Shown: positions 1 to 14,625 of the stretch, in pieces
Layout of the letters: each line of letters begins with the position of its first letter
Position numbering within the stretch: position 1 is the stretch's first letter
Assembly: GCF_900112765.1 (NCBI RefSeq)
Contig: NZ_FOMZ01000001.1
Span: forward strand, 1-64,000
Direction of reading: 5' to 3'
Source of the DNA: Actinopolyspora alba
Lineage (GTDB): Bacteria; Actinomycetota; Actinomycetes; Mycobacteriales; Pseudonocardiaceae
Length of the DNA: 64,000 nucleotides
Translations under genes and position numbers: made by a program
Notes under the pieces: generated by a model
Seen by the model: the letters and a program-made list of their open reading frames with translations, nothing else
The model's database searches: none
Told to the model about the DNA's origin: nothing

Positions 1-3000
1 CCCGTCGCCGTCACCGAGTCGGTCGCCCCACCTCGGTCACCATCGACATCGACGGTGACCTCTACCAGGTGTTTCTCACCTTGGCCGGTGATGGTGGCCG
101 TCACCCGCTCCGGCCCGGTCTCCCCACTCTGCGGGTCGGTGGCCAACACCCGATCCCCGAGCTCGACCTCCTCGATCGCGACCCGCGACCCATCGGCCAA
201 CACCACCTCGGTACCCGGCACGAAACTGTTCGGCGTGCACCCACCACCAGCACCCGACGAACCGCCAGAGCCCGACGACCGCGCCGAACCACTACCGGGC
301 AGATCCGGCGTCGACCCCGGACGGGACATGCCGCCACCACGCCGGAGACCACCCACAGCCCCCAACGCATCCGGCACGAACCCACCGGCATCCTCCGCAG
401 AACCCGCCGACGCCGCATCCGCGGCCAACACGCCCAGCTCGATCGGCTCCTGGTTGTCCAGCCGATCCAACCTGTCGCGCACCTGGTCGGAGACCGTGTT
501 CGACGGTTTCGGCTTGGGGTGATGCGTCATCGCATCCTCACGCACCCGATTCCGCCGCGCCGCCAACCGGGCCGCCTCACGCGCCGCCGCCCTGGCCTGA
601 GCGATCGCCGCCCGCGACGAGACCTCCACACCCGCCGAACCACCAGCGGAAACGGCCACACGCCCACCGACGTGCCCCACGCCCTTACCGAACCGACCAC
701 CGGCCCTACCACGGCCCTTACCCCGACCGCGACTCTTACCCTTGCTCTTGGCCTTGGTCTTACCGCCCCCGCGGTTGAACTTCCTACCACTGGACGGCAC
801 GTCGTCGACGGTCTTACCGGCCTTCCGGCCCCGGCTCCAGGTCTTGTAGCCCTTGTAGGCGGTCTTGACCCCCTTGGCGATCTTGCCGAACGGCGTGAAG
901 TTCGCCGCCGTCCAGGCACACCCCGCCCAGGAGCCCTGCAAACACCGCTTGGCGTCGTTGTAGCCCGACACCTCCTTGACGACATCGACCACCGAACCCC
1001 AGAAGTAGCCCCGCGGATCCACCCGCGTCAGCGGATTACCACCCGCGTAGGCGTACCGGTTGGCATCGGTCGTGCTGGTCGGATCCAGGTTCGCCGAGTC
1101 GCGCGAGGTGAACGTGCCCGTGCCGGGCCGGTACCAGCGCGAGCCCATGTTCACCTTGCCGCTGTCGGAATCGGTGAACTGCCCCTGGTAACCCAGCGAG
1201 GGCTGCGAGCCCTCCTGCTCGCTCACCTGGCCGAACGGCGAGTACGAGCGCCACCCCGACACCGAACCGTCACCCGGCGAGACCGTGCCCACCAGGTCGG
1301 TGTGCTGGTTGGTCACCGCGATCCCGGCCGAGTCGCCGTTGCCGACCCCGAGCGCGGCACCCTCCGGCGTGTAGGAGTACTCGCTCTGCCCGTCCGAGGT
1401 CACCTTCAGCGAGTCGCCCGCGTAGGACAGTGAACGCGACCCGGACGAGACCAGCCGGTTCAGCGCGTCGTAGCCGTAGGACTTGCCGCCGTCGGCGGTC
1501 ATCTCGCCGTAGGCGTTGAACCGCACGTCGGTGGTGGTCCCACCCGCGCTCCGGGCGGTCACGGTGCCGCGCGCCGAGTACTCGAACTCGGTGCCGCCCC
1601 GCGAGAGCAGCCGGTTGCGTTCGTCGTAGGTGGCCGTCTCACCGCCGGAGCCGACGAGGTTGCCCGCCGCGTCCCAGGAGTACTGGGTGACCTGGTCACC
1701 GTTGTCCCAGGAGGTGAGCCTGCCCGCCTTGTCGTAGGTGTAGTTCGAGGTCGTGGTGGCCGAGGCCGTCGAGTTCTGCTTGCTGATCAGCCGGTCGGCG
1801 ACGTCGTAGTCGTAGGACAGCTCCGTGCTGACCGAGTCGTCGGCCCGGTGCACCGTGTCGGAGGAGAGCCTGCTGAGCTCGTCGTAGCCGTACTCGCGGT
1901 AGGTCCCCTGACTGCCGTACTCCACGCGGGCGCGGCGCCCGGCGTCGTCGTAGCCGTACGTGGCGGTGATGCCGGTGAGCGGGTCCACCGCCGTGGCCAG
2001 CCGTCCGGCCGCGTCGTAACCGAACGACGCCTCGCCCGCCGCCGTGGTGGTGGTGCTGATCCTGCCCTCGTCGTCGTAGGCGAAGGTGGAGTCACCGGAG
2101 GGGCCGCTGGCCGAGACCAGGTTGCCTCGGTCGTCGTAGCCGAAGGTGTTGGTCTTGCCGGACACCGTGGCCGAGGTCATCCGCCCGGCCTTGTCGTAGC
2201 CGAAGCTCCGGTCCGGGGTGGACGCCTCCGCGCCGGAGCCGCTCTCGCCGACGAGGTTGCCCAGCGCGTCGTAGGACTTGCTGACGGTCACCCCGCCCGG
2301 TTGGATCTCCCGCTTCACCCGTCCCAGCGCGTCGTAGGCGGTGGTGTAGGTGCGGTCGGCGGCGTCCGGGTGCCGCTCGGTGGCGGGCTCGATCGTGGAC
2401 TCGGTCGTGTTCCACGAGTTGACGGTGTAGACGGTGTTGTTGCCGTTGCCGTCGGTGGCCCTGGTGACGTTGCCCGCCGCGTCGTAGCCGTAGCTGGTGG
2501 TGATCTCCTCGCCGTCGGCGACCGGGCGGGTGATCGAGCGCAGCCGGTTCAGCGGGTCGAACGAGCGGGTGGTGGTCACCCCGTGCGCGTCGGTGCTGCT
2601 GACCTGGTTGCCCGCCCGGTCGTAGCCGAAGCCGCGGCTGCGCACCTCGTTACCGGCGGCGTCCAGATCGGCCGTGCGCAGCAGCCTGCCCGCGAGGTCG
2701 TACTCGTAGGTGGTGGTCACCCCGGACGGCTCGGTGATCGAGACCGGCTTGCCCTGCGCGTTGTGGACCGACGTGGTGGTGTTGCCCGCCGGGTCGGTCA
2801 TGCTCACCGGGTTGCCGAGGTCGTCGTGCTCGTAGGTGGTGGTCAAGCCGGTGGGCGTGCTGACCGAGGCCGGGTTGCCCAGCGCGTCGTAGGTGTAGCG
2901 GGTGGTCAGGTTCCTGGTCGGTTCCGGCACGCGCTCCACCACGGTGGAGGTGATCGTCCTGCCGAGCTCGTCGTAGGTGTAGTGCCGCTCGGCGCCGGTC

Positions 3001-6000
3001 ACGTCGGTGACCGAGAGCCGCTCGCCCAGCGGGTCGTAGGTGGCGCGCCACACGCCGCCGGACTGCTCGCCCTCGCGTGCGGGATTGGTGCGCCGCACCA
3101 GGTTGCCCAGTTCGTCGTAGCCGAACGTGGTGGTGTCGCCCAGCGCGTCGGTGCTCTCGACCACGCGACCGGCCGCGTCGTAGCTCTTGGTGCTGGTGGC
3201 GGTGATCGGCTGGCTCGCGCCCGGCGGGGTGTAGTCGGGCCTGGTGGTGCTCACCTGCCGCCCGGCCTTGTCGTAGGCGCTGGTGGTCACGTTGCCGTTC
3301 GGGCCGCGCCGCGCCACCGCTTCGCCGAAGGTGTTGTAGCCGTTGGTGACCACCGGCGAGACGGGCTCGGCCGGGTTGCCGCCGGATTCGGCCCGCACCT
3401 CCGGTCGCGTCACGGTGACGCGCCTGCCGAGCGCGTCGTAGCCGTACTCGGTGGTGAACTCTGCCGCGTCGGCGCCCTGCGCGGTGCCCCTCGGGTCCAC
3501 CGTGGACGTCACGAGCCCGCGCTGGTCGCGGTGGCTCTTCGACACCAGGGTTTCCCCGCCGGTGTGGACGGTGTGCGAGAGGCGCCGCCCCATCGGGTCG
3601 TAGCCGCTCTCGGCGTGCCGGACGATCTCGCCCTTGGGGTTCCGGTCGATGACCTCGACCGGGTTGCCGACCGCGTCGTAGCTGGTCTCGGTGGAGCGCA
3701 GCACCCGCTCGCCCTCGCGGTCGGTGCTGCGCACCGGGCGTCCGGCGGGGTCGTACTCGGTGCTGGTGCTGTACTGCCCGTCGCCGCGGACCACCAGCGA
3801 CTCGGAGCCGTTGCCCAGGTACTCGTAGCGCCGCAGCAGCAGGTCGCGGGTCTCGCCGCTTTCCGGGTCCTGATAGTCCAGCAGTCGCTCGGCCGCGAGC
3901 TGCCCGTCGTCGTAGTAGGTGCGGGTGGTGGTGCGGCCCATCGCGTCGGTGACGCTGGCCAGCCGGCCCGCCGGGTCGTAGGCGCGGGACTCCAGCACCA
4001 CGTCGTGCGGTTCGGAACCGTCACCGCTGAACCCGGTCACCGTCATGGTGGCCAGCTGGTGCCGGGCGGCGGTGTAGGTGTAGGTGTACTCGGTCCCGGT
4101 GGGCGTCACCCGGCGCACTACCTCGCCGAACTCGTCGTACTCGGTGCGGGTGACCCCGCCCTCGGGGCCGGTGACCTCCAGGCGACGGCCCCGGTTGTCG
4201 TAGGTGTAGGAGGTGGTGCGGGCCGGGTCGTTGCCCAGCGCGTCGTCCACCGTGGTCTCGGCGATGCTGCCGTCGCCGTTGTAGGTGTTGCGCACCCGGC
4301 GCTGGTGGAGCTCGCCGGTGACGGCGTTCTCGGTCTCGGGCCCGACCTTCTCGACCAGCCTGGATGCCTGGTCGTAGTCGAAGGTGGTGGTCAGCCCGTC
4401 CGGTTCGCTGTCGGAGATCTGGGTCTCGGTGGTCTTGCGCCCGAGCCCGTCGTAGTCGTACTCGGTGACCAGCCCGGCCGGGTCGGTGACGCCGGCCAGG
4501 TCACCGGCGCTGGTGTAGGTGTAGCTGGTCGTGTTGCCCGCCGGGTCGGTCTCGGAGGCCAGCAGCCCCGGTGGCTGGGTTCCGCCGTCCGGTGCGGTTT
4601 CGTCGCCGGTGGTGTAGGCGTTGGTGGTGGTGCGCTGGGCACCGCCGGTCTCACCCGGCTCCGAGGTGCTGGTGAGCTTGCCCGCGGCGTTGTAGGAGTA
4701 GGTGGTCAGGTAGGTGTCGTCGGTCTCGGAGGCCGAGCGGGCGTCCCGGAACTCGGTGACCTTGCCGTTGCGCGGGTCCAGCGGGTCGTCGGGGTTGTGG
4801 TAGTAGGAGCGGTAGCTGGTGTAGCACTTCTCGGTGCCGTCGGTGCGGCACCGGGTGCGGGACAGCTGGTTGCCGCGTTCGTCGTTGGAGATCCTGGTGG
4901 TGTTGCCGTTGGCGTCGGTGATCCGGTTGACGAACCCGCCGGTGTCGTAGCCGTACACCTTGGTGGCGCCGTCCGAGTTGGTCACCGAGATGGTCCGGCC
5001 ACCGGCGTTGGGATCGTAGGTGTAGGTGCGGACCCCGCCGTCCGGACCGGTGATGTCCACGGCCGTGGCCGCGTTCCTGGCCGAGTAGTGGTCGGCCACG
5101 CTGGCGCTGTCCAGCGGCCGGTGGTAGAGGGCCACCTCGCCGATGGAACCCTCGAAGTGGTTCCACACCTGGTCGGGCAGGGCGGGCCAGTCCTTCGAGT
5201 CGACCTGTCCGATGCCGAGGAAGTCGTAGCGGAAGAAGTTGTCTACCTCGCCCGATTGCGATCCCACCATGTCGCCGTCCAGGTAGAGCCGCTGCGAGTC
5301 GCCGGCGGCCGACAGCGCCACGTGGTGCCACTCACCGTCGTTGACGGCCGAGTCGGTGGTGATCCCCGAAACCTCGCCGTTGCGGAAGTGCCCGCGCAGC
5401 TTGCCGTCGGTGCCCACGTAGAGCACCGGCACGGCACCGGTGGACGGTTGGGAGACGTTCGGCCCGAAGTAGCCGGTGGCGTAAAGCACCCCGCCGGCCG
5501 AGCTGGAGGTCTTGAACCACATCTCCACGGACAGTCGGCTGCGGCCGCGCGCCTGGCTGTTGGGCAGGCGCACGTACGAGCTCTGCCCGTCGAAACCGAC
5601 GGCTCCCGCACCGCGCATCGGCGGGGAAACGCCCTTGTCGACACCGTGGTAGGTGGCGTCGGTCAGCGCGTGCACCGATTCGGCGTGCGTGCTGCCCGCC
5701 GGATCACCCAGTGTCCAGAGGGTGTGGACGTTCTCCTCGCGCACGGCCGCCCGGTAGTCGGCCGCGTCGCCGCGCGCCGCGTAGTGCTCCTGGGCGTCGG
5801 AGGCCGAGACCCCGTAGGGGTACAGCGCGACCTGGCCGATCGAGCCCTCGAAGTAGCCCCAGGTGCCCTCGGGCTTGGCGGGCCAGTTCAGGCCGTTGAG
5901 CAGCCCGGTTCCGACGTAGCCGTAGGGGTCGATGTTCTGCAGCTCGCCCTGCAGCGTCTGGACGGCGTTACCGTCCAGGTACAGCGTCTGCTGCTCGGGC

Positions 6001-9000
6001 TTGCCGGACAGCATCACCTGGTGCCACTGGCCGTCGTTGACCTGGTTCGCCGAGACGGCGCCCTCGGTCTTGGCGTTCCAGAAGTGGCCGTGCAGCTTGC
6101 CGTCGGTGCCCACGTAGAGCACCGGCATGGCACCGCCGGTGGGGTTCTCGTCGTCCGGGCGGTTGTTGCCCGTGGAGAACAGCACACCGCCGTCGGTGCT
6201 GGAGGTCTTGAACCACAGTTCGACCGCCAGTCGTTTCCTGCCGGTGAGCGCGTCGTCCGGCAGCTGGACGTAGGAGCTCTGCCCGTCGAAGGAACGCGCC
6301 GCGGTGTCCGGGAACGGGCCGGAGGTGCGCGAGACCGAGTGGTACTCGGCGCGCCGCAGCGCGGGACCGCTGCGCGCGGTGGTTCCCTCGTTCTCCCGCA
6401 GTCGCCAGTGGGCGTTCGGGCGCGATCCGGTCACCGCTTCGCCGTAGCGGAACCCGTCACCCTCGGTGGTGGACTCGCCGACCTGCCAGGTGCCGCCGTC
6501 CGAGTCGGTGTAGCTGGTCACCCTGGCGGTGGACGAATCGTAGGAGATCTCGGCCGCGTAGGCACCACCCGCGCGCTTGATGGAGGTCAGCTGCTCGGTG
6601 GCGGCGCGGGCCTCGTAGTGCTCGGCGGCGACGGTCCGGCCCAGCGGCTGGTGGTACATCGCCACCTCGGCGATGTCGCCGTCGAAGTAGTCCCACGTCG
6701 CGTTGGGGGCGGCGGGCCAGTCGCGGGAGTTGAACCAGCCCGCGCCGACGTGGTTGAGCGGGTCGACGTTGGCGAGTTTTCCGCTCTGGCTGCCCACGGT
6801 CCGCCCGTCGAGGAACAGCGTCTGGGTGTCGCGGGCGCCGGAGAGCACGACGTGGTGCCACTCGCCGTCGTTGACGGTGGAACCGGTGGCGATCCCGGCC
6901 GTCTTGCCGTTCCAGAAGTGGCCGTGCAGCTTGCCGTCGGTGCCCACGTAGAGCACCGGCATGGCGGCGTCGCTCGGGTTCGAGGTGCCCGGCCGGTCGT
7001 AGCCGGTGGAGAACAGGATCTCACCGTTGGAACTGCTGGTCTTGAACCACATCTCCACGGCCAGGTACTGCGAGTTGCGCACCATGTCGTCGGGCAGCTG
7101 GACGTAGCTGGACGAGCCGTCGAAACCGGCCGCGGTGGTGGAGCTGCCCGCGATCGGGCCGGGCCTGCCGTGGGTGAGGTCGTGGGAGGTGGCTTCCTTG
7201 GACTCCCAGTAGCCGGGCACCTCGCTGGTCACGGCGGTGCCGGACTCTTCGGACAGTCGCCAGTAGGCGCGCGGGTTGGCGTCGAGCGTGACCGCGCGGT
7301 AGTGCGAGCTGTCGGTGTAGGTGTAGTTGTCACAGGCCCCGGTGGGGTCGCAGACCCTGGTGAGGCGGTCGCCGTCGTAGTGGTAGTGCCAGGTCAGCAC
7401 CGGATCCGGCGCGGTGCTGACCTCGGTGACGTGCCCGCCGGAGAAGGTCAGGTTCAGCGAGCGCCCCGAGGTGGCGTCGGTGACCGTGGCGAGGTTGCCC
7501 GAGCCGTCGTAGGAGAGGTGCTGCTCGCGTCCCTGCGCGTCGACGATCCGGCTCAGCCGTCCGTTCGAGTCGAACTCGTAGCGTTGGCCGCCCTGGGTGC
7601 GCAGCGTCCAACCGTCCGATTCGGTGCGCACCAGCGTGGCGGTGCGTCCGGAGGGGGTGGCGTAGCTGCCGTCGGGATTCCGCCCGTAGCGGGCCTGCTG
7701 CCCGCTGGCGTAGGTGACCACGACGTTGCCGGAACCGTCGTCGTCGGGCACCACCCGCGCGTCCCACTTGGTCGACCAGCCGGAGCCGAAGGCCAGGTTC
7801 TGCCTGGGGTCGAGGCTGTTGTAGGAGCGCGCCACGGACAGTTCCGGCCCCACGGCGGCGATCTCGGCGTCGGTCTCGACCTCGGCGAAGTTGCCCACGC
7901 CGGGGTCGACGCGCCCACCGACCTCGTCACCGGACGAGAGGTGGCTGGTCACCGGTGGCTGCGGCACCTTGGTGGTCAGGTGGGAGCCCTGCGTCCAGGG
8001 GCTGGCGATCCGCATGTCGCCGATCTGGCCGTACCAGACGTAGTTCTCGCCCCAGGTGAGCTCGCCTTCCGGCACCGACCAGACCGGGGAGTCCACCCAG
8101 CCGGAGTTGAAGCAGTCCTCACCGGGCGCGGAGCAGACCTTGAAGCGGTAGTTGATGCCCTCGCCCGGGTAGACGTCCTGGTCGTGACCGGTCAGCGCGA
8201 GCGTGGGGGTCAGCACCGAGGCGTTGTAGTCGCTGGGCGGCGACATGGAGTCCACGGCGGGCGGCTGGTTGGGCACGGTGAACGCCACCGACGCCGACAT
8301 CGGCGCACCGGTCCAGGAGAACCGGTTGGTGCCGTAGTGGTCCATGTCCCAGCGCAGCGAGTACTCGCCCGGCGGCAGTTTCTCGACGCGGGCGTCGAGG
8401 GTGACCGTCTGTCCGGGAGCGACGTCGTGCGGCATGTCCGTCCACGCCGTGGAGGTGCGCGGCAGCTCGTTGCCCTCGGCGTCCCAGAGCCGGTAGCCCA
8501 GCTTGTAGTCGTTGTCCGGGGTCCAGGTGTCGCGCCCGCGGTTGGTCACCGTGACGCTCATCCGGCCGTCGTCGCTGCTGGTGACGACCGGGCTCATGCC
8601 GCCGAGCTCGTAGTCGGCCCAGTACGGCGTGTAGGTGACCTCCAGGTAGGGCGGGTTGGCCGAGGCCGCGCTGGCGAACTTCTTCCAACCCTTGGAGTCG
8701 GTGTCCGAGGCGCGCAGCGCCAGGCCGTGGTTGGGCTCGCCGTGGGTCCAGCCGTGCACGAGATCGCGCCCGGCGTTGCCCAGCGGGATGTCCACCCACT
8801 GCGACCCGCAGCTGTCGTTGTAGCCGTGGGCGAAGCTCTTGCGGGCGATCTCCGCTCCGGTGGTCGGGCCGGGATAGCTCTTGTTGCCCTGCACCGACCA
8901 GGGCTGGGTGACCTCGTGCACCCGCACCGGCCTGGGATCGCAGGAGTAGGACCAGGTCTCGAACATCCGCAACCTGGCACCGAGGACGTAGTTGCCCGCC

Positions 9001-10205
9001 AGCTCGGAGCTGATCGAGTCGAACTTCAGGAAGGCGGCGGCCTTGTTGCCACCGCCGTTGTAGGTGCCCACGCTCATGTTGGGCTCGCCCGAGTAGTCGC
9101 TGTCGTAGGGCGACTGCACGTAGGTGGTGCCGTCGGTGTCCTTGCCGACCACGCTCGGGTCGACCTTGACCGGGAAGACCCGCTCCGGGTCCGCGAGCCA
9201 CTCCTCGTCCACCGAGACCCGCAGCACGGGCTGCTCGGCGTCGCCGACGATCTCGTACTTCACACCGTCGGAGCGCACGCCCTCACCGGAGCGGGGGTGG
9301 ACGTTGGAGTCCACCATGTAGCCCGGTGGGATGACGTGGCGGACCTCGCCCTCGGAGTCCTTGAGCAGCACCGAGCCCTCGTGCAGCTCCGGCGTGAGGT
9401 CGCCGACGTTCATCGGGAAGTCCCACACGGTCGGCGCGTCGGCCGACTTCAGCAGGATCGTCTCCTTGATACCGACGGCGGTGGCCTGCAGGTTGAGATC
9501 GGCCCGCGGCCGGATCCCCGGGTAGGTGACCGAGCTGCCGGAGACCTTCGCGGCGACGTCGGCGGCGTCGGCCACCCGGAATCCCAGGGATCTGCCGTCG
9601 GCGAGTTCGATCGAGGCGATCTCGGAGGTGTTCGCGGCGTCCGCGAAGTTCTTGGTCCGCGAGTCGGTGGTGGTCTTCCAGACGCCGCCGTCCTGTTCCA
9701 GGGTCAGATCGACCGGCTGGAGGCCGCCGTCGGCGGTCTCGGCGAACTTCTGGCTCTGGTAGACGCGCAGCGTCCTGGTGCCGTCGGCGTTGGCGAAGGT
9801 CTGGCTCTGGCTGGAGCGCTCACTCTTGAGCTCACGGCTGGTGCTGGGATCGAACCCTCGAGTGGCGGCGTCCGGTTCGGAGCCGATGCTGACCTTCGCC
9901 TTCTCCGGCAACTGCTGCGGCAGTTCCGGGGCGGGCGGGCGTTCGTCCGAGGGCAGTCCCTCGGCGGGCGGCGCGTTGTGCGACTTCCCGCCGGATCCGT
10001 TCTCGGCCGAGGTGTCCTCGCTGGAGGCGTCGTGGGAGCGCCCGGCCGCACTGCCCTGCCGCTGTTCCGGGATCTCGCCCTGCGTGGCGGCCCGCGCCTG
10101 CAGCTGCGGGGCGTTGATCAGGCCCATGACCACTGCCAACGCGAGCAGCAGCGATCCGAGCCTGGCGGGACGCAGCGTGTTGCCACGGCGCGCGTCGTAG
10201 CTCAT
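1..10205 (-). CDS. Giant secreted Rhs/YD-repeat protein with three LamG domains and a HINT domain; 3' end outside window
   Basis: Read on the minus strand, the frame is open from an ATG at 10205 (GAGGAAC ribosome site) to the left edge, so about 3,400 codons are visible and the C-terminus is missing. Residues 1-40 form a signal peptide (hydrophobic LGSLLLALAVVMGLINAP, then ARA-AT). Residues ~355-530 resemble DNRLRE domains of cell-wall proteins. YD-type sequence starts near 770. Three LamG-like jellyrolls lie at ~968-1200, 1255-1475 and 1488-1700, each with a WFKTSS...LYVGTDGKL...VNDGxWHxV pattern. Dozens of YD repeats (GYDxxGRxxxxxD) follow to ~3020. The Rhs core RWYRPGTGTFTSRD ends in DPRGY near 3060. 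From ~3320 a cysteine starts CTPNSFVPGTEVVLADGS, the opening of the HINT domain typical of polymorphic toxins. Known family role: a YD shell encapsulating a C-terminal toxin. The payload and any immunity gene lie left of the window. No transposase is visible nearby. Confidence 0.93.
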   Translation of the reverse strand, partial: MSYDARRGNTLRPARLGSLLLALAVVMGLINAPQLQARAATQGEIPEQRQGSAAGRSHDASSEDTSAENGSGGKSHNAPPAEGLPSDERPPAPELPQQLPEKAKVSIGSEPDAATRGFDPSTSRELKSERSSQSQTFANADGTRTLRVYQSQKFAETADGGLQPVDLTLEQDGGVWKTTTDSRTKNFADAANTSEIASIELADGRSLGFRVADAADVAAKVSGSSVTYPGIRPRADLNLQATAVGIKETILLKSADAPTVWDFPMNVGDLTPELHEGSVLLKDSEGEVRHVIPPGYMVDSNVHPRSGEGVRSDGVKYEIVGDAEQPVLRVSVDEEWLADPERVFPVKVDPSVVGKDTDGTTYVQSPYDSDYSGEPNMSVGTYNGGGNKAAAFLKFDSISSELAGNYVLGARLRMFETWSYSCDPRPVRVHEVTQPWSVQGNKSYPGPTTGAEIARKSFAHGYNDSCGSQWVDIPLGNAGRDLVHGWTHGEPNHGLALRASDTDSKGWKKFASAASANPPYLEVTYTPYWADYELGGMSPVVTSSDDGRMSVTVTNRGRDTWTPDNDYKLGYRLWDAEGNELPRTSTAWTDMPHDVAPGQTVTLDARVEKLPPGEYSLRWDMDHYGTNRFSWTGAPMSASVAFTVPNQPPAVDSMSPPSDYNASVLTPTLALTGHDQDVYPGEGINYRFKVCSAPGEDCFNSGWVDSPVWSVPEGELTWGENYVWYGQIGDMRIASPWTQGSHLTTKVPQPPVTSHLSSGDEVGGRVDPGVGNFAEVETDAEIAAVGPELSVARSYNSLDPRQNLAFGSGWSTKWDARVVPDDDGSGNVVVTYASGQQARYGRNPDGSYATPSGRTATLVRTESDGWTLRTQGGQRYEFDSNGRLSRIVDAQGREQHLSYDGSGNLATVTDATSGRSLNLTFSGGHVTEVSTAPDPVLTWHYHYDGDRLTRVCDPTGACDNYTYTDSSHYRAVTLDANPRAYWRLSEESGTAVTSEVPGYWESKEATSHDLTHGRPGPIAGSSTTAAGFDGSSSYVQLPDDMVRNSQYLAVEMWFKTSSSNGEILFSTGYDRPGTSNPSDAAMPVLYVGTDGKLHGHFWNGKTAGIATGSTVNDGEWHHVVLSGARDTQTLFLDGRTVGSQSGKLANVDPLNHVGAGWFNSRDWPAAPNATWDYFDGDIAEVAMYHQPLGRTVAAEHYEARAATEQLTSIKRAGGAYAAEISYDSSTARVTSYTDSDGGTWQVGESTTEGDGFRYGEAVTGSRPNAHWRLRENEGTTARSGPALRRAEYHSVSRTSGPFPDTAARSFDGQSSYVQLPDDALTGRKRLAVELWFKTSSTDGGVLFSTGNNRPDDENPTGGAMPVLYVGTDGKLHGHFWNAKTEGAVSANQVNDGQWHQVMLSGKPEQQTLYLDGNAVQTLQGELQNIDPYGYVGTGLLNGLNWPAKPEGTWGYFEGSIGQVALYPYGVSASDAQEHYAARGDAADYRAAVREENVHTLWTLGDPAGSTHAESVHALTDATYHGVDKGVSPPMRGAGAVGFDGQSSYVRLPNSQARGRSRLSVEMWFKTSSSAGGVLYATGYFGPNVSQPSTGAVPVLYVGTDGKLRGHFRNGEVSGITTDSAVNDGEWHHVALSAAGDSQRLYLDGDMVGSQSGEVDNFFRYDFLGIGQVDSKDWPALPDQVWNHFEGSIGEVALYHRPLDSASVADHYSARNAATAVDITGPDGGVRTYTYDPNAGGRTISVTNSDGATKVYGYDTGGFVNRITDANGNTTRISNDERGNQLSRTRCRTDGTEKCYTSYRSYYHNPDDPLDPRNGKVTEFRDARSASETDDTYLTTYSYNAAGKLTSTSEPGETGGAQRTTTNAYTTGDETAPDGGTQPPGLLASETDPAGNTTSYTYTSAGDLAGVTDPAGLVTEYDYDGLGRKTTETQISDSEPDGLTTTFDYDQASRLVEKVGPETENAVTGELHQRRVRNTYNGDGSIAETTVDDALGNDPARTTSYTYDNRGRRLEVTGPEGGVTRTEYDEFGEVVRRVTPTGTEYTYTYTAARHQLATMTVTGFSGDGSEPHDVVLESRAYDPAGRLASVTDAMGRTTTRTYYDDGQLAAERLLDYQDPESGETRDLLLRRYEYLGNGSESLVVRGDGQYSTSTEYDPAGRPVRSTDREGERVLRSTETSYDAVGNPVEVIDRNPKGEIVRHAESGYDPMGRRLSHTVHTGGETLVSKSHRDQRGLVTSTVDPRGTAQGADAAEFTTEYGYDALGRRVTVTRPEVRAESGGNPAEPVSPVVTNGYNTFGEAVARRGPNGNVTTSAYDKAGRQVSTTRPDYTPPGASQPITATSTKSYDAAGRVVESTDALGDTTTFGYDELGNLVRRTNPAREGEQSGGVWRATYDPLGERLSVTDVTGAERHYTYDELGRTITSTVVERVPEPTRNLTTRYTYDALGNPASVSTPTGLTTTYEHDDLGNPVSMTDPAGNTTTSVHNAQGKPVSITEPSGVTTTYEYDLAGRLLRTADLDAAGNEVRSRGFGYDRAGNQVSSTDAHGVTTTRSFDPLNRLRSITRPVADGEEITTSYGYDAAGNVTRATDGNGNNTVYTVNSWNTTESTIEPATERHPDAADRTYTTAYDALGRVKREIQPGGVTVSKSYDALGNLVGESGSGAEASTPDRSFGYDKAGRMTSATVSGKTNTFGYDDRGNLVSASGPSGDSTFAYDDEGRISTTTTAAGEASFGYDAAGRLATAVDPLTGITATYGYDDAGRRARVEYGSQGTYREYGYDELSRLSSDTVHRADDSVSTELSYDYDVADRLISKQNSTASATTTSNYTYDKAGRLTSWDNGDQVTQYSWDAAGNLVGSGGETATYDERNRLLSRGGTEFEYSARGTVTARSAGGTTTDVRFNAYGEMTADGGKSYGYDALNRLVSSGSRSLSYAGDSLKVTSDGQSEYSYTPEGAALGVGNGDSAGIAVTNQHTDLVGTVSPGDGSVSGWRSYSPFGQVSEQEGSQPSLGYQGQFTDSDSGKVNMGSRWYRPGTGTFTSRDSANLDPTSTTDANRYAYAGGNPLTRVDPRGYFWGSVVDVVKEVSGYNDAKRCLQGSWAGCAWTAANFTPFGKIAKGVKTAYKGYKTWSRGRKAGKTVDDVPSSGRKFNRGGGKTKAKSKGKSRGRGKGRGRAGGRFGKGVGHVGGRVAVSAGGSAGVEVSSRAAIAQARAAAREAARLAARRNRVREDAMTHHPKPKPSNTVSDQVRDRLDRLDNQEPIELGVLAADAASAGSAEDAGGFVPDALGAVGGLRRGGGMSRPGSTPDLPGSGSARSSGSGGSSGAGGGCTPNSFVPGTEVVLADGSRVAIEEVELGDRVLATDPQSGETGPERVTATITGQGEKHLVEVTVDVDGDRGGATDSVTAT

Positions 10206-10648
10206 CAGAAGTTCCTCACCAGCCGTGAGCCGCGACCCGCCCCACCGCGACAGCGGAGAGCCGACCACGACCCGAGTGGAACCGAGCGGAGCACCGGCCA
10301 CGCCGGAGCGACGGAACGCGGTGTGCCCACACCGGACCCGTCTCCCTTCGGTCCCGAACTGCACGTACCGGCGTCACGCGGCGGACCCCGGCAATCCGGG
10401 CCCGGCCGTCGAAACGCCCGGCGGAACTTAGCCGTGAAACTGGCGTGAATTGAAGAGGGTATATCTCTTTGTGATCTTTTTGTGCCGATCAACCGGTTCG
10501 CGCGGTGTTCGTTTTCACAATTTTCGACATGGACAAGAAATCGTTTGACGATTAAACCGCGCGCGTGGAACCTTCGAGCGCTCTCCGTGAGAACACTCTT
10601 CGTGTCGGGGACGTGATTCCCGCGCGTTCGGTTGCGTCACCCGGAGTG
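10206..10648. other. Intergenic region upstream of the Rhs gene
   Basis: About 440 bases without a convincing gene. The stretch 10440-10560 is markedly AT-rich for this genome and contains runs such as TATATCTCTTTG and TTTTTGTG on the plus strand. It is the likely promoter area for the Rhs gene on the minus strand, but no clear -35/-10 pair with proper spacing could be fixed. The part between 10250 and 10430 is GC-rich and shows no coding signal on either strand. Confidence 0.5.
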
Positions 10649-10684
10649 AAAAAAGAATCCGCCGGGAGACGGATTCCCGGCGGA
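10649..10684 (-). terminator. Rho-independent terminator of the 2-epimerase gene
   Basis: A perfect 10-bp stem (TCCGCCGGGA at 10658-10667 with TCCCGGCGGA at 10675-10684) is followed on the minus strand by a T-rich tract read from 10657 down to 10649. It lies 78 bases past the stop of the minus-strand epimerase gene, as expected for its terminator. Confidence 0.8.
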
Positions 10685-10761
10685 CGCGGTGATCGCCGAT
10701 CTCGGTGTCGCGGGGCGACGGGAACGGACGACGAGCGGAGCGTCCGACCGCGAGAGCGGGA

Positions 10762-12024
10762 TCAGCCGAAGTGCTCGGGCAGCCCCGTCGAGTCCGCGGA
10801 CGAGCACGCCCCGGACGCGGGTGAGGTAGCGGCCACGAACGGTTCGGGAAGTTCCGGAGCCGCACCGAGCAGCCACGCCAGTACGGCCTCGGCCCGCTCG
10901 GCGCCGCGACCGTCACCGAACGGATTGCCGCCGGCCAGCATCGACTCCCTGGCACGGGCGTCGTCGAGCAACCGCGAGGCGTGGTGCACGATCCGGGCCC
11001 GCTCGGAGCCCACCAGCAGAGCACACCCCGCGTCGACGGCTTCGGTGCGTTCGGTGACGTCGCGCAGCACCAGCACCGGAACGCCGAAGGCCGGCGCCTC
11101 CTCCTGGATCCCGCCCGAATCGGAGAGCACCAGTGTGCTGGCGGCGAGCACGTGCGCCAGCTCACCGTAGGGCAGTGGATCGGTGACCAGCACGCGGGGA
11201 TCGGCCTCGAACATGCCCCGGACCATCCCGCCGACCCGCGGATTGGGATGAGCGGGCAGCACCACCCGGATGTCGGGATGCAGCGTGGTCAGCTCCCGGA
11301 CCGCGGTGAGAATGCGCCGCATCGGCTCACCCCAGGATTCCCTGCGGTGCACGGTCACCAATACCAATCGATCGTCGCCGTTGGCGGCCCGTTCCACCGT
11401 CCCGGCCAGTTCCCCGTTCTCGAACACCCTTTCACCGCGGGTTGCCGATTCCACCGCGTCCACCACGGTATTGCCACTCACCAGGATTCTTTCGGGGGCG
11501 ATCCCGGAATCGCGCAGATTCCGCGCCGCGAGCTCGGTAGGGGCGAGATGAAAATCGCCGGCCTGGGTGACCATTCTTCGGTTGAGTTCCTCCGGGAACG
11601 GCGCTCGCAGGTCGAACGAGCGAAGTCCCGCCTCCAGATGGACCACCGGAACACGGCGCCAGAAAGCGGTGAGCGCGCCCGCCAGCGTCGTGGTGGTGTC
11701 ACCCTGCACCAGCACCGCTGCCGGCGGCCGGCTCTCGGCCAACTCGTCCAGAGCCGTGATCAGCTCGCTCAGCAGTTCCGGCTGCGTCCCGCTGCCGCGG
11801 CGCACCGTGATGTCCACGTCGGACTCCAGGCCGAAGGTGCGCAACGCCTGCGAAACCATTTCCGGATGCTGTCCGGACGCCACCATTACCGGACGTATCC
11901 GACCGTTGTCGAACGACGCGCGGGCAACCGGGGCGAGTTTGACCGCCTCGGGGCGTGTTCCCGCGACGAGCCACACTTCTGACTGCCCGTGAGGTGCGAA
12001 ACTGTTAATCTCGCTGCCGTACAT
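10762..12024 (-). CDS. wecB: UDP-N-acetylglucosamine 2-epimerase (non-hydrolysing)
   Basis: A 420-residue cytosolic enzyme, the usual length of the family. It interconverts UDP-GlcNAc and UDP-ManNAc, supplying ManNAc units for surface polysaccharides. Visible motifs are GTRPEAVKLAP (22-32), VQGDTTT (106-112), HLEAGLRS (129-136), PFPEELNRR (142-150), VTVHRRES near 240 and DSGGIQEEAP near 315, which carry the sugar-nucleotide site. The ATG at 12024 was chosen over an upstream start because GGAGG sits 9 bases before it and the conserved core begins soon after. The last ~25 residues are a Ser/Ala-rich tail. It is divergent from a small membrane protein and a family-2 glycosyltransferase, which suggests that the product feeds a secreted or wall glycan. 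The polymer itself cannot be inferred. Confidence 0.93.
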   Translation of the reverse strand: MYGSEINSFAPHGQSEVWLVAGTRPEAVKLAPVARASFDNGRIRPVMVASGQHPEMVSQALRTFGLESDVDITVRRGSGTQPELLSELITALDELAESRPPAAVLVQGDTTTTLAGALTAFWRRVPVVHLEAGLRSFDLRAPFPEELNRRMVTQAGDFHLAPTELAARNLRDSGIAPERILVSGNTVVDAVESATRGERVFENGELAGTVERAANGDDRLVLVTVHRRESWGEPMRRILTAVRELTTLHPDIRVVLPAHPNPRVGGMVRGMFEADPRVLVTDPLPYGELAHVLAASTLVLSDSGGIQEEAPAFGVPVLVLRDVTERTEAVDAGCALLVGSERARIVHHASRLLDDARARESMLAGGNPFGDGRGAERAEAVLAWLLGAAPELPEPFVAATSPASGACSSADSTGLPEHFG

Positions 12025-12162
12025 ATTCCGCGACCTCCGACACGCCGAAAACGGCCGACTCTGCTCGACCCACAGGGGATCTATACCGAAAGAAGCGCGG
12101 TACCGCATGCACGTCCGCGCTCGTGTCCGAATAATGAAAGATCTTGTTCGAACGGAGTGGAC

Positions 12163-12348
12163 ATGTATTCTCTTCGGTTCTGCGGCGCTGCCGTGTCCAG
12201 CATGGGAATCGCGAGCACCAGCGGTAACCCCGGTGTTCTCTACGGTGTTCTGTCGATCCTTTCACTGCTGGCGTTGCTGCTGGCCGTGCGATCCGTGCGA
12301 CTGCACCGGCGACCGGAGGCCACGCTCCTGATCGGGCACGAGAAATGA
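12163..12348 (+). CDS. Small single-span membrane protein, translationally coupled to the glycosyltransferase
   Basis: A 61-residue protein with one hydrophobic segment (VLYGVLSILSLLALLLAV, about residues 26-43) followed by basic residues (RSVRLHRRPE), implying a single membrane span with an inside-positive C-terminus. The ATG at 12163 has GGAG about seven bases upstream. The stop overlaps the next start in ATGA (12345-12348), so it is very likely co-translated with the glycosyltransferase and may be its partner or a membrane anchor. I recognise no family. Confidence 0.7.
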   Translation: MYSLRFCGAAVSSMGIASTSGNPGVLYGVLSILSLLALLLAVRSVRLHRRPEATLLIGHEK

Positions 12349-13616
12349 TCGGATGGTTCCCGGTAGTACTGATGATCGTACTACTCGTCTGGTGGCCCAC
12401 GCTGAATCTGCTACTCGCGGCGTTCTCGTGGCGGGTTCCGGCGTCCGTGACGGAGCACGACGAGAACGAGCCGTTCTCGTTCTTCATCGTGATCCCGACG
12501 CTGAACGAGGAACGCGTCATCGCAAGCACGGTCGATCACGCACTGGCACTGGGGAGCCCCGAAACGCCGGTTCGGGTGCTGGTGATCGACGACGACTCCG
12601 ACGACGACACCCGCGCGATACTGGCGGGCATCACCGACCCCCGACTGCACGTGATCCACCGCGAACCACCCCGGGCACGCCTCGGCAAGGGCGACTCGCT
12701 CAACCAGGCGTGCGGCTACATCCTCAGCCACACGGAGCTGGATCCCGCGCGAACCGTGGTCGGCGTGCTCGACGGTGACGGCCGGGGCAGCCCCGACATG
12801 CTCGGCGAAGTCACGAAGATGCTGCGTGACGAGACGATCGGTGCGGTGCAGTGCGGAATACGCATCCAGAACCGCGAGAGTGTGCTGGCACTGCTGCAGG
12901 ACCTGGAGTTCGGCGTGATGATGGACTCCGTGCAGCTGCTGCGGGATCTGCTCGGCAGTGTGGGACTGGGTGGCAACGGCCAGTTCATCCGGCTCTCCGT
13001 GCTCGCCTCGTACTCCTGGTCCGACAGCCTGGTGGAGGACTACGAATTCGCGCTGCGGTTGCACTTGGACGGTGTGCGCGTCAGATACACCAACAGTGCA
13101 CGCGTCGGCCAGCAGGGGCTTCCGGACGTACCGAGGCTGCTGCGGCAACGAGCCCGCTGGGCACAGGGCAATCTGCAGTGCGCGCACCACGTTCCGAGCC
13201 TGGTGAGATCGCGTGCGGTGAGCAATCCGGCGCTGCTGGACTTTCTGCTGGCGTTGATCATGCCCTGGGCGACGGTCCCGATGTCGGTGATATTCAGCGG
13301 CCTGGTCGCGCTCAGCGTGGTCACCACCACCGCGGCGACCACCGGAAACGTGCTCACGGCTGCCCCGGCGATCGTGCTGGCCTCCGCCACCTGGCTGTTC
13401 CTGCTGTTCCTGCCCGGACTGGTGTGGGGTCTGGTGCACCGCCTGCGACTGGGTGACGAGCCGCTGCGGCGTTGCCTGCTGGCCGGAGTGTGCTATCCGG
13501 GTTTCCTGCTGTGCGGGGTGTTAGCCACGTGGCGCGCGATGTTCCGCAGGGTGACGCGGCGGAACTCCTGGGCCAAGACGGACCGGGTACCCGACCGGTC
13601 CGTCGTGGCGGAGTGA
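12345..13616 (+). CDS. Membrane family-2 processive glycosyltransferase
   Basis: A 423-residue integral membrane enzyme of the GT2 type, related in plan to cellulose or hyaluronan synthases. A membrane span at ~4-27 is followed by a cytosolic GT-A domain with IPTLNEE (50-56), IDDDSDD (81-87), DGDGR (143-147), EDYEF (231-235) and RQRARW (267-272). The last is the QxxRW-type motif of processive enzymes with the first position shifted to RQRARW. Further spans lie at ~298-325, 340-365 and 378-395. It starts in an ATGA overlap with the small membrane protein and is divergent from the 2-epimerase, so UDP-ManNAc or UDP-GlcNAc are plausible donors by inference. Leu393 is encoded by TTA (13521-13523), a rare codon tied to developmental control through the bldA tRNA in related genera. 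The substrate is unknown. Confidence 0.88.
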   Translation: MIGWFPVVLMIVLLVWWPTLNLLLAAFSWRVPASVTEHDENEPFSFFIVIPTLNEERVIASTVDHALALGSPETPVRVLVIDDDSDDDTRAILAGITDPRLHVIHREPPRARLGKGDSLNQACGYILSHTELDPARTVVGVLDGDGRGSPDMLGEVTKMLRDETIGAVQCGIRIQNRESVLALLQDLEFGVMMDSVQLLRDLLGSVGLGGNGQFIRLSVLASYSWSDSLVEDYEFALRLHLDGVRVRYTNSARVGQQGLPDVPRLLRQRARWAQGNLQCAHHVPSLVRSRAVSNPALLDFLLALIMPWATVPMSVIFSGLVALSVVTTTAATTGNVLTAAPAIVLASATWLFLLFLPGLVWGLVHRLRLGDEPLRRCLLAGVCYPGFLLCGVLATWRAMFRRVTRRNSWAKTDRVPDRSVVAE

Positions 13617-13728
13617 GGTTCTCCGGGCGGCGCGCCGGAGACTCCCCGACCATTCGAGGCGAGCGGTGGGCTCTCCCGCCGTACCGCCCCGAAGCCGAGT
13701 GCCGCGGCTCGCCACGGACGATGGACGC

Positions 13729-14625
13729 ATGACCGACACCGCGCGCGACGGCGGGAACTTCCGACGACTGGCACCGGGCCAACGCACCGTGGTTCAGCTC
13801 GCCGCCCAGGACTCCCCGGAGCCACGGAAGCTGTTCGAGACGGCGGAGATCCTGCTCGAAGCCCCCAACTGGACCCCGGACGGCAGCGCGCTGCTGCTCA
13901 ACGGGAACGGGGCGCTGTGGCGGCTCGACGCCGCTCGTCCCGACGACGTCGAACACGTCCCGCTGACCGGGGTGCCGGACATCAACAACGATCACGTGCC
14001 CGCACCGGACGGGCGGACCGTTTACGTCACGGCCAAGGACGGGCACATCTACGCCGCCCCGATCACCGGAGGCGCGGCCACCCGGCTGACCGAGGACGAC
14101 GGGTGGCGGCACTACCTGCACGGCGTCAGTCCGGACGGAAGGAGTCTGGCGTGCGTGCTGCTGCCGAGCGGTGGGGACGGTACAGCCGGTGAGCTGGCGG
14201 TACTGCCCGCCACGGGCGGTCCCGTGCGGGTGCTGGAGACCGGGCCGGGACACCTCGACGGGCCGGAGTACACCCCGGACGGCGAGTGGATCGTGTTCAA
14301 CGACGAGTCGTTCGGCGGGGAGCCCGGGCACGCGCAGCTGGCACGCGTCCCCGCCGAAGGGGGAACACCTCGTCGGCTGGTGAGCTCGGCGACCGTGGAC
14401 TGGTTCCCGCACGTCTCACCGGACGGCAGGTACGCGAACTACCTGTCCTACCCGGCCGGGACTCTCGGGCACCCGCCCGACACCGAGGTGGCGATCCACG
14501 TGGTCTCCACCGCGGACTGGCAGACCCCGATCCGCACCTTCCCGCTGTTCGGTGGGCAGGGCACCAGCAACGTGGGCAACTGGGCTCCCGACAGCGGTCG
14601 GTTCGCCTTCGTCTCCTACGGGTAG
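13729..14625 (+). CDS. PD40/TolB-like beta-propeller protein
   Basis: A 298-residue protein without a signal peptide. Repeated blades carry WTPDGSAL, APDGRTVYV, SPDGRSLACV, TPDGEWIVF, SPDGRYANY and WAPDSGRFAFVSY, the PD40 signature of TolB-type WD propellers. DNDH- and HYLHG-containing loops resemble the oligogalacturonide lyase-like propeller group, but no catalytic set can be confirmed. The start at 13729 (ATGACCGAC) is preferred to one 63 bases upstream because the upstream residues look like non-coding read-through. It is probably a cytosolic sensor or a sugar-related propeller. Its mRNA 3' side carries a pair of palindromic repeats. Confidence 0.75.
   Translation: MTDTARDGGNFRRLAPGQRTVVQLAAQDSPEPRKLFETAEILLEAPNWTPDGSALLLNGNGALWRLDAARPDDVEHVPLTGVPDINNDHVPAPDGRTVYVTAKDGHIYAAPITGGAATRLTEDDGWRHYLHGVSPDGRSLACVLLPSGGDGTAGELAVLPATGGPVRVLETGPGHLDGPEYTPDGEWIVFNDESFGGEPGHAQLARVPAEGGTPRRLVSSATVDWFPHVSPDGRYANYLSYPAGTLGHPPDTEVAIHVVSTADWQTPIRTFPLFGGQGTSNVGNWAPDSGRFAFVSYG

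Follow-up and report, generated by a model that had tools for sequence, protein, structure and literature searches.

Our study concerns the first 64,000 bases of contig C32 (the window) in the 5.24 Mb, 42-contig genome of Actinopolyspora alba, which open inside a giant Rhs gene. With good confidence, we interpret this gene as part of an Actinopolyspora polymorphic toxin locus, in which a secreted Rhs shell carries an ADP-ribosyltransferase (ART) tip of the RhsF-CT kind that would be released by a HINT domain, accompanied by an antidote gene, here called imm1, and by spare cassettes. A preliminary description, made from the window alone, had recognised a Rhs/YD shell with a signal peptide, a Rhs core and the beginning of a HINT, and had placed the payload beyond the window, after the HINT. 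Both statements hold: the shell, whose signal we judge by eye, is an open frame of 3454 codons with the corresponding Pfam and NCBIfam matches, and the end of the HINT, together with a tip of 121 residues, was found on contig C24. The continuation of the gene and its frame, the family of the tip, its linkage to imm1, the variety of tips that sister genomes carry on a common shell and the identity of the shell tip and a spare tip in one sister were all computed.

Because window base 1 is also base 1 of C32, the cut in the shell gene is an assembly end. Once reverse-complemented, window 1-71 coincides base for base with the first 71 bases of C24, also a contig end, and a scripted comparison found this to be the longest exact end overlap between the window and C24. 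A genome search with window 1-3000 returned 12 matches (40 of 312 first-look candidates scored). With the 71 overlap bases as query there were four (40 of 56 scored): two identical ones, namely the window itself and C24:1-71, and two at 94% that lie inside C24. The codon phase agrees: the peptide HLVEVTVDVDGDRGGATDSVTAT closes the translation of the window and opens frame 1 of C24. In two sister genomes, window 1-13,976 (G180, 97.3%) and window 1-13,179 (G369, 96.6%) were matched without a break to the end of the compared stretch, and the C24 side resumes at 95-98% identity from C24 10.2 kb and 5.7 kb, respectively, with a variable array between the two conserved flanks. The HINT domain itself is divided between the contigs. 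Its N-terminal Cys half lies in the window, where the Hint match is partial (20.9 bits where the cut-off is 32.1, 32 residues matched), and its His-Asn half lies on C24 before the tip and matches PT-HINT (E 7.7e-12), as do two whole homologous copies in C24 (E 2.7e-21 and 2.8e-20). On C24 the HINT terminates in LVHN, and the tip follows. From these sequences, the continuation of the shell gene is located from the end of C32 into C24:1-654, the contigs themselves being left unjoined, and the complete shell protein would have about 3,600 residues by arithmetic from the two contig pieces. The protein does not end after its HINT and its C-terminal part is not a housekeeping domain, the two outcomes against which the preliminary description had cautioned.

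The tip is probably an RhsF-CT-like ART toxin, and thus of a known kind, judging by its sequence. Two comparisons with the PDB were run, one with a profile built from the four near relatives of the tip and one with the tip as a single sequence. The only match of the profile up to E 1 was 9zdm_B, RhsF-CT of Chromobacterium violaceum (E 1.3e-13), and the single sequence matched entry 9ZDM at E 0.002. Residues R16, S54, Y66 and E105 of the tip align with R1403, S1445, Y1456 and E1497 of RhsF (counted with one constant offset), the arginine in the profile comparison and the other three in both comparisons, and all four are invariant across four aligned rows of the tip family (R16, S54, Y66 and E107 in the first row). 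According to its published account, RhsF-CT is an ART toxin that transfers ADP-ribose to RNA in vitro, its toxicity in E. coli is abolished by alanine at R, Y or E and reduced at S, and BLASTp and motif searches by its authors gave nothing significant (PMC13324451). The best alignments of a predicted model of the tip's nearest relative were to ART-fold enzymes and toxins, 9ZDM not being among the 50 matches listed (library to 2026-04-08). The previously undescribed toxin that had been suggested for this place was rejected after the 9ZDM match, which shows the tip to be related in sequence to the already published RhsF-CT. Membership in DUF7587 (PF24494) was also rejected, since the tip reaches 24.9 bits and the Pfam cut-off is 27; together with three distant relatives, the tip gives DUF7587 matches of 73-92 residues, all four below the cut-off, and NCBIfam gave no match to the tip. 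A homologue scan with a single protein as query (HINT end and tip) yielded 41 stretches that fit the pattern, 16 of them confirmed, at 14 loci. Relatives of the tip occur in four actinobacterial genera (Actinopolyspora, Streptomyces, Nonomuraea and Actinoplanes), and a class-wide search with the tip profile matched two of 394 genomes, one of them this genome. The G+C content is 57% in the tip, 56% in the antidote gene and 70% in the shell. In genome G196, a distant relative (L015) sits inside a protein with a putative type VII secretion system signal domain (PF21725, E 2.7e-24), putatively the same kind of toxin on a different export route.

The preliminary description had also anticipated a small matching immunity gene downstream. 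The gene found there, imm1, overlaps the stop of the tip (TTG start, 106 codons), and it is very likely the antidote because homologues lie directly 3' of all four tip relatives, in addition to the pair of the window itself, and 16 other tips lack a full copy behind them. These homologues are 41-71% identical to imm1. Across the 21 tips compared, an imm1 homologue stands directly downstream of five out of five of this kind (its own and the four relatives), and no full copy was found within 700 bases downstream of any of the other 16 (14 distinct, two cassettes having been counted twice: L032/L055 and L034/L051). One of these 16, L046, has a fragment of an imm1 homologue, 23 residues long, about 540 bases downstream. 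None of five more distant tip relatives has an imm1 homologue within the DNA examined, and imm1 matches occur in three of 397 genomes of the order, this one included, all in one genus. Searches with imm1 gave no Pfam, NCBIfam or believable PDB match; three weak PDB matches (E 0.12-0.23) were to designed coiled-coil proteins and were taken as chance. Whole homologues of imm1 are also present in sister genomes, three in G180 and one in G369. Two sisters retain a match to no more than the final 43 residues of the tip, beside a whole antidote, and the remnant in G369 contains a stop. These whole antidotes beside tip remnants suggest that antidotes may outlast their toxins.

The same locus was compared across the genus. 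A HINT search matched eight of 10 genus genomes, and the first 747 residues of the shell were found in six of the 10, once each, at 88-97% identity in the five sisters; the last third of the shell is also homologous in the sisters checked. The N-terminal match contains one TGA in G062 and none in the others. These six orthologous shells carry five different tips, four of which, in the five sisters, differ from that of this genome (Table 1). The active tip of G369 is identical to a spare cassette over about 660 bases, a stretch that takes in the whole toxin and the beginning of the antidote. In the preceding 600 bases, eight of 10 windows differ (88-100% identity per 60 bases), and the antidote beyond the identical stretch includes one 44-of-60 window; this is the pattern expected from recent copying. 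The antidotes of the five sister tips have homologues in the array of this genome in four cases, with best identities of 78% (G369), 93% (G200), 91% (G751) and 60% (G062), the last being a weaker case because the SUKH family is common. The antidote of the G180 tip has no homologue in the array, and neither the window nor C24 14-33 kb holds a homologue of any sister-tip antidote. The antidote of the G369 tip has two homologues in this genome (76-78%). For the G369 tip itself, Pfam yielded nothing at E 0.001 (one match at 0.22 resembles chance), NCBIfam nothing, and the PDB nothing believable; its 12 PDB matches (E 0.00026-0.16) were all to designed beta-trefoil proteins, spanned about 22-31 residues with no single stretch passing alone, and were taken as chance. 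If an undescribed toxin is to be sought here, this tip is a better choice than the one of the window.

Table 1. Features of the toxin locus in the window, on C24 and in sister genomes.
Feature	Location	Strand	Evidence or remark
Exact 71-base overlap with C24 start (reverse complement)	window 1..71	.	gene continues on C24
Giant polymorphic-toxin shell gene (Rhs/YD), cut at its 3' end by the contig end	window 1..10205	-	ORF, domains, orthologues in 5 sister genomes
Putative N-terminal secretion signal (hydrophobic stretch ending ...QLQARA)	window 10089..10205	-	judged by eye from the translation
DUF6531 (aa 817-893 of 3454-aa ORF)	window 7686..7916	-	Pfam, E 2.2e-12
Laminin-G-like module (aa 1107-1241)	window 6642..7046	-	Laminin_G_1, E 5.1e-17
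Laminin-G-like module, best stretch (aa 1592-1757)	window 5094..5591	-	Laminin_G_3, E 3.3e-44 (whole-protein value)
Top-scoring RHS repeat, 1 of 15 PF05593 stretches	window 3078..3182	-	Pfam
Rhs-associated core with PxxxxDPxG motif (NPLTRVDPRG, codons from 1037)	window 1008..1244	-	TIGR03696, E 6.8e-18
HINT self-cleavage domain, first half, from Cys (GCTPNSF), start at about 242	window 1..242	-	Hom_end_hint, E 0.0004
Tip 1 with HINT end	C24:1-654
imm1	C24:648-968
HINT remnant	C24:1121-1161
imm1 paralogue without toxin	C24:1377-1697
Silent cassette 1: LHH nuclease tip and SUKH antidote	C24 array		E 3.6e-24 (tip), E 3.3e-15 (antidote)
Silent cassette 2: unnamed tip, motif EINHIPA, and its antidote	tip C24:5315-5680 (L009); also L047
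Further antidote genes	C24 array
Shell tip, this genome			ART-like
Shell tip, G180			AHH nuclease, E 1.4e-16
Shell tip, G369	L024:16235-16573	-	unnamed, 113 residues
Identical spare copy of G369 tip	L024:12234-13235	-
Shell tips, G200 and G751			EINHIPA tip
Shell tip, G062			non-specific nuclease, E 4.6e-22
Whole antidote beside 43-residue tip remnant	L022:16590-17032	+	sister genome
Whole antidote beside 43-residue tip remnant	L024:13994-14436	-	sister genome

The open reading frame (ORF) of the shell runs on the minus strand from a GTG at 10364 to window base 3, still open and with zero stops; its start is likely the ATG at 10205, as in the preliminary description. RHS repeats occupy 15 stretches (E 2.6e-129) and YD repeats 22, and Pfam adds three Laminin_G_3 stretches within the YD region that had gone unmentioned before. 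A plus-strand ORF, 1848-10448, overlaps the shell gene, and we take it to be a shadow of the latter because the minus frame has about 93% G+C at third codon positions and the Pfam domains lie in it (the plus ORF was not run against families). On the 5' side of the shell, window 10765-13613 holds a UDP-N-acetylglucosamine 2-epimerase gene (E 5.1e-98) and a divergent glycosyltransferase gene, and in G180 and G369 both genes likewise adjoin the shell. On C24, the array was examined from 1 to 11.2 kb; its G+C content is 57%, against 67-70% in its surroundings, and both of its silent cassettes are shell-less. The unnamed tip of the second cassette (motif EINHIPA...SGPAIRMDI.DH), silent in this genome and shell-borne in G200 and G751, gave no match in family searches, and by eye it looks like a His-dependent nuclease.

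Systems of this kind are well described. Zhang et al. (2012, PMC3482391) describe HINT-bearing polymorphic toxins with RHS repeats, laminin-G, HINT processing, a variable tip, standalone toxin-immunity cassettes and strings of immunity genes; relative to these we see no difference in principle, and what is particular here is that exchange can be traced between sister species at one locus. The closest relation of the tip is with RhsF/RhsFi of C. violaceum (PDB 9ZDM), which shares with our locus a Rhs C-terminal tip, similarity over most of that tip, the same R, S, Y and E residues and a small antidote gene adjoining the toxin gene; RhsF, however, is a FIX-domain effector of the type VI secretion system (T6SS), whereas the shell here has a secretion signal, laminin-G modules and a HINT (PMC13324451). 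An imm1 profile found no match to RhsFi, a protein of six helices, in the PDB up to E 1, so imm1 is not recognisably RhsFi by sequence. Nor did the tip profile match, up to E 1, the TreX/TreTu Rhs toxins of Xenorhabdus bovienii (PDB 8s2m, 9gco and 8s2n). In a limited literature check we found no paper on DUF7587 or on Actinopolyspora with Rhs, and neither this locus nor the link from RhsF-CT to actinobacterial relatives was found in print.

For the mechanism, what the tip targets and how it is delivered are inferences, as are cleavage, toxicity, protection and the direction of copying. The giant shell would be secreted with the tip at its C-terminal end. A search with T6SS_VipA, the one component tested, gave no match in this genome (among 14 control genomes, it matches in E. 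coli), and neither did Phage_sheath_1; delivery by T6SS or sheath was rejected on this basis, with one family for each, which a divergent system could escape. We therefore presume a WapA-like secreted route as the best guess for delivery of the shell. The HINT would then cut the chain at LVHN and free the ART toxin, which would draw on NAD+ to join ADP-ribose to some target of rival cells. Our best guess for this target is RNA, because RhsF-CT modifies RNA in vitro. Cleavage, release of the tip and entry are proposed on account of the families involved, as described in the 2012 paper (PMC3482391). The product of imm1 would protect the producer, the silent cassettes (HINT plus other tips) and spare antidote genes may form a reserve behind imm1, and tips may be swapped by homologous recombination in the HINT region.

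It is important to consider other explanations. The contigs might join otherwise, so that the live tip of the strain is another one and C24:1-654 a further spare cassette; C24 contains other HINT copies, which resemble the first bases of the window at 93% identity (254 bases) and 95% identity (383 bases), and such repeats break or mislead assemblies. Yet the sole identical copy is C24:1-71, in phase and where a contig ends, and two sisters keep both flanks uninterrupted and in the same order, which makes a different join scarcely credible. As for activity, fold matches alone cannot tell an ADP-ribosyltransferase from a NAD(P) glycohydrolase, which would kill by draining NAD without tagging a target, and the ART-fold Rhs toxin Tne5 defines such a glycohydrolase family (PMC13285283). 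The only PDB sequence match of the tip, however, is RhsF-CT, which put ADP-ribose on RNA in vitro, and we regard a glycohydrolase as unlikely, if the most serious of these alternatives.

The shell might instead act inside the producer's own colony, for self/non-self sorting or as a toxin-antitoxin system, in which case the cassettes would be debris. There is a published account of Rhs elements as type II toxin-antitoxin modules (PMC7043789), and the T6SS_VipA and Phage_sheath_1 searches recognised no delivery machine. The secretion signal, the HINT, the exchange of tips among sisters and the stockpiling of antidotes fit competition between strains, and a role confined to the colony appears quite improbable next to the proposed secreted toxin with its antidote.

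These results close the question that the preliminary description had left open, since the payload has been located and its likely antidote found, and they give the recently solved RhsF-CT toxin relatives in four genera of actinobacteria. A wider interpretation, which we offer tentatively and at somewhat less than even chances, is that of an arms ledger, in which HINT homology lets tips be exchanged on one shell and every species keeps antidotes to the present weapons of its sisters. RhsF-CT-like R-Y-E toxins would then form one family, found both in proteobacteria with a T6SS and on secreted shells of actinobacteria, whose antidotes are unrelated in sequence. The six genomes of the genus, this one and its sisters, allow both the swapping of tips and the keeping of antidotes to be tested directly.
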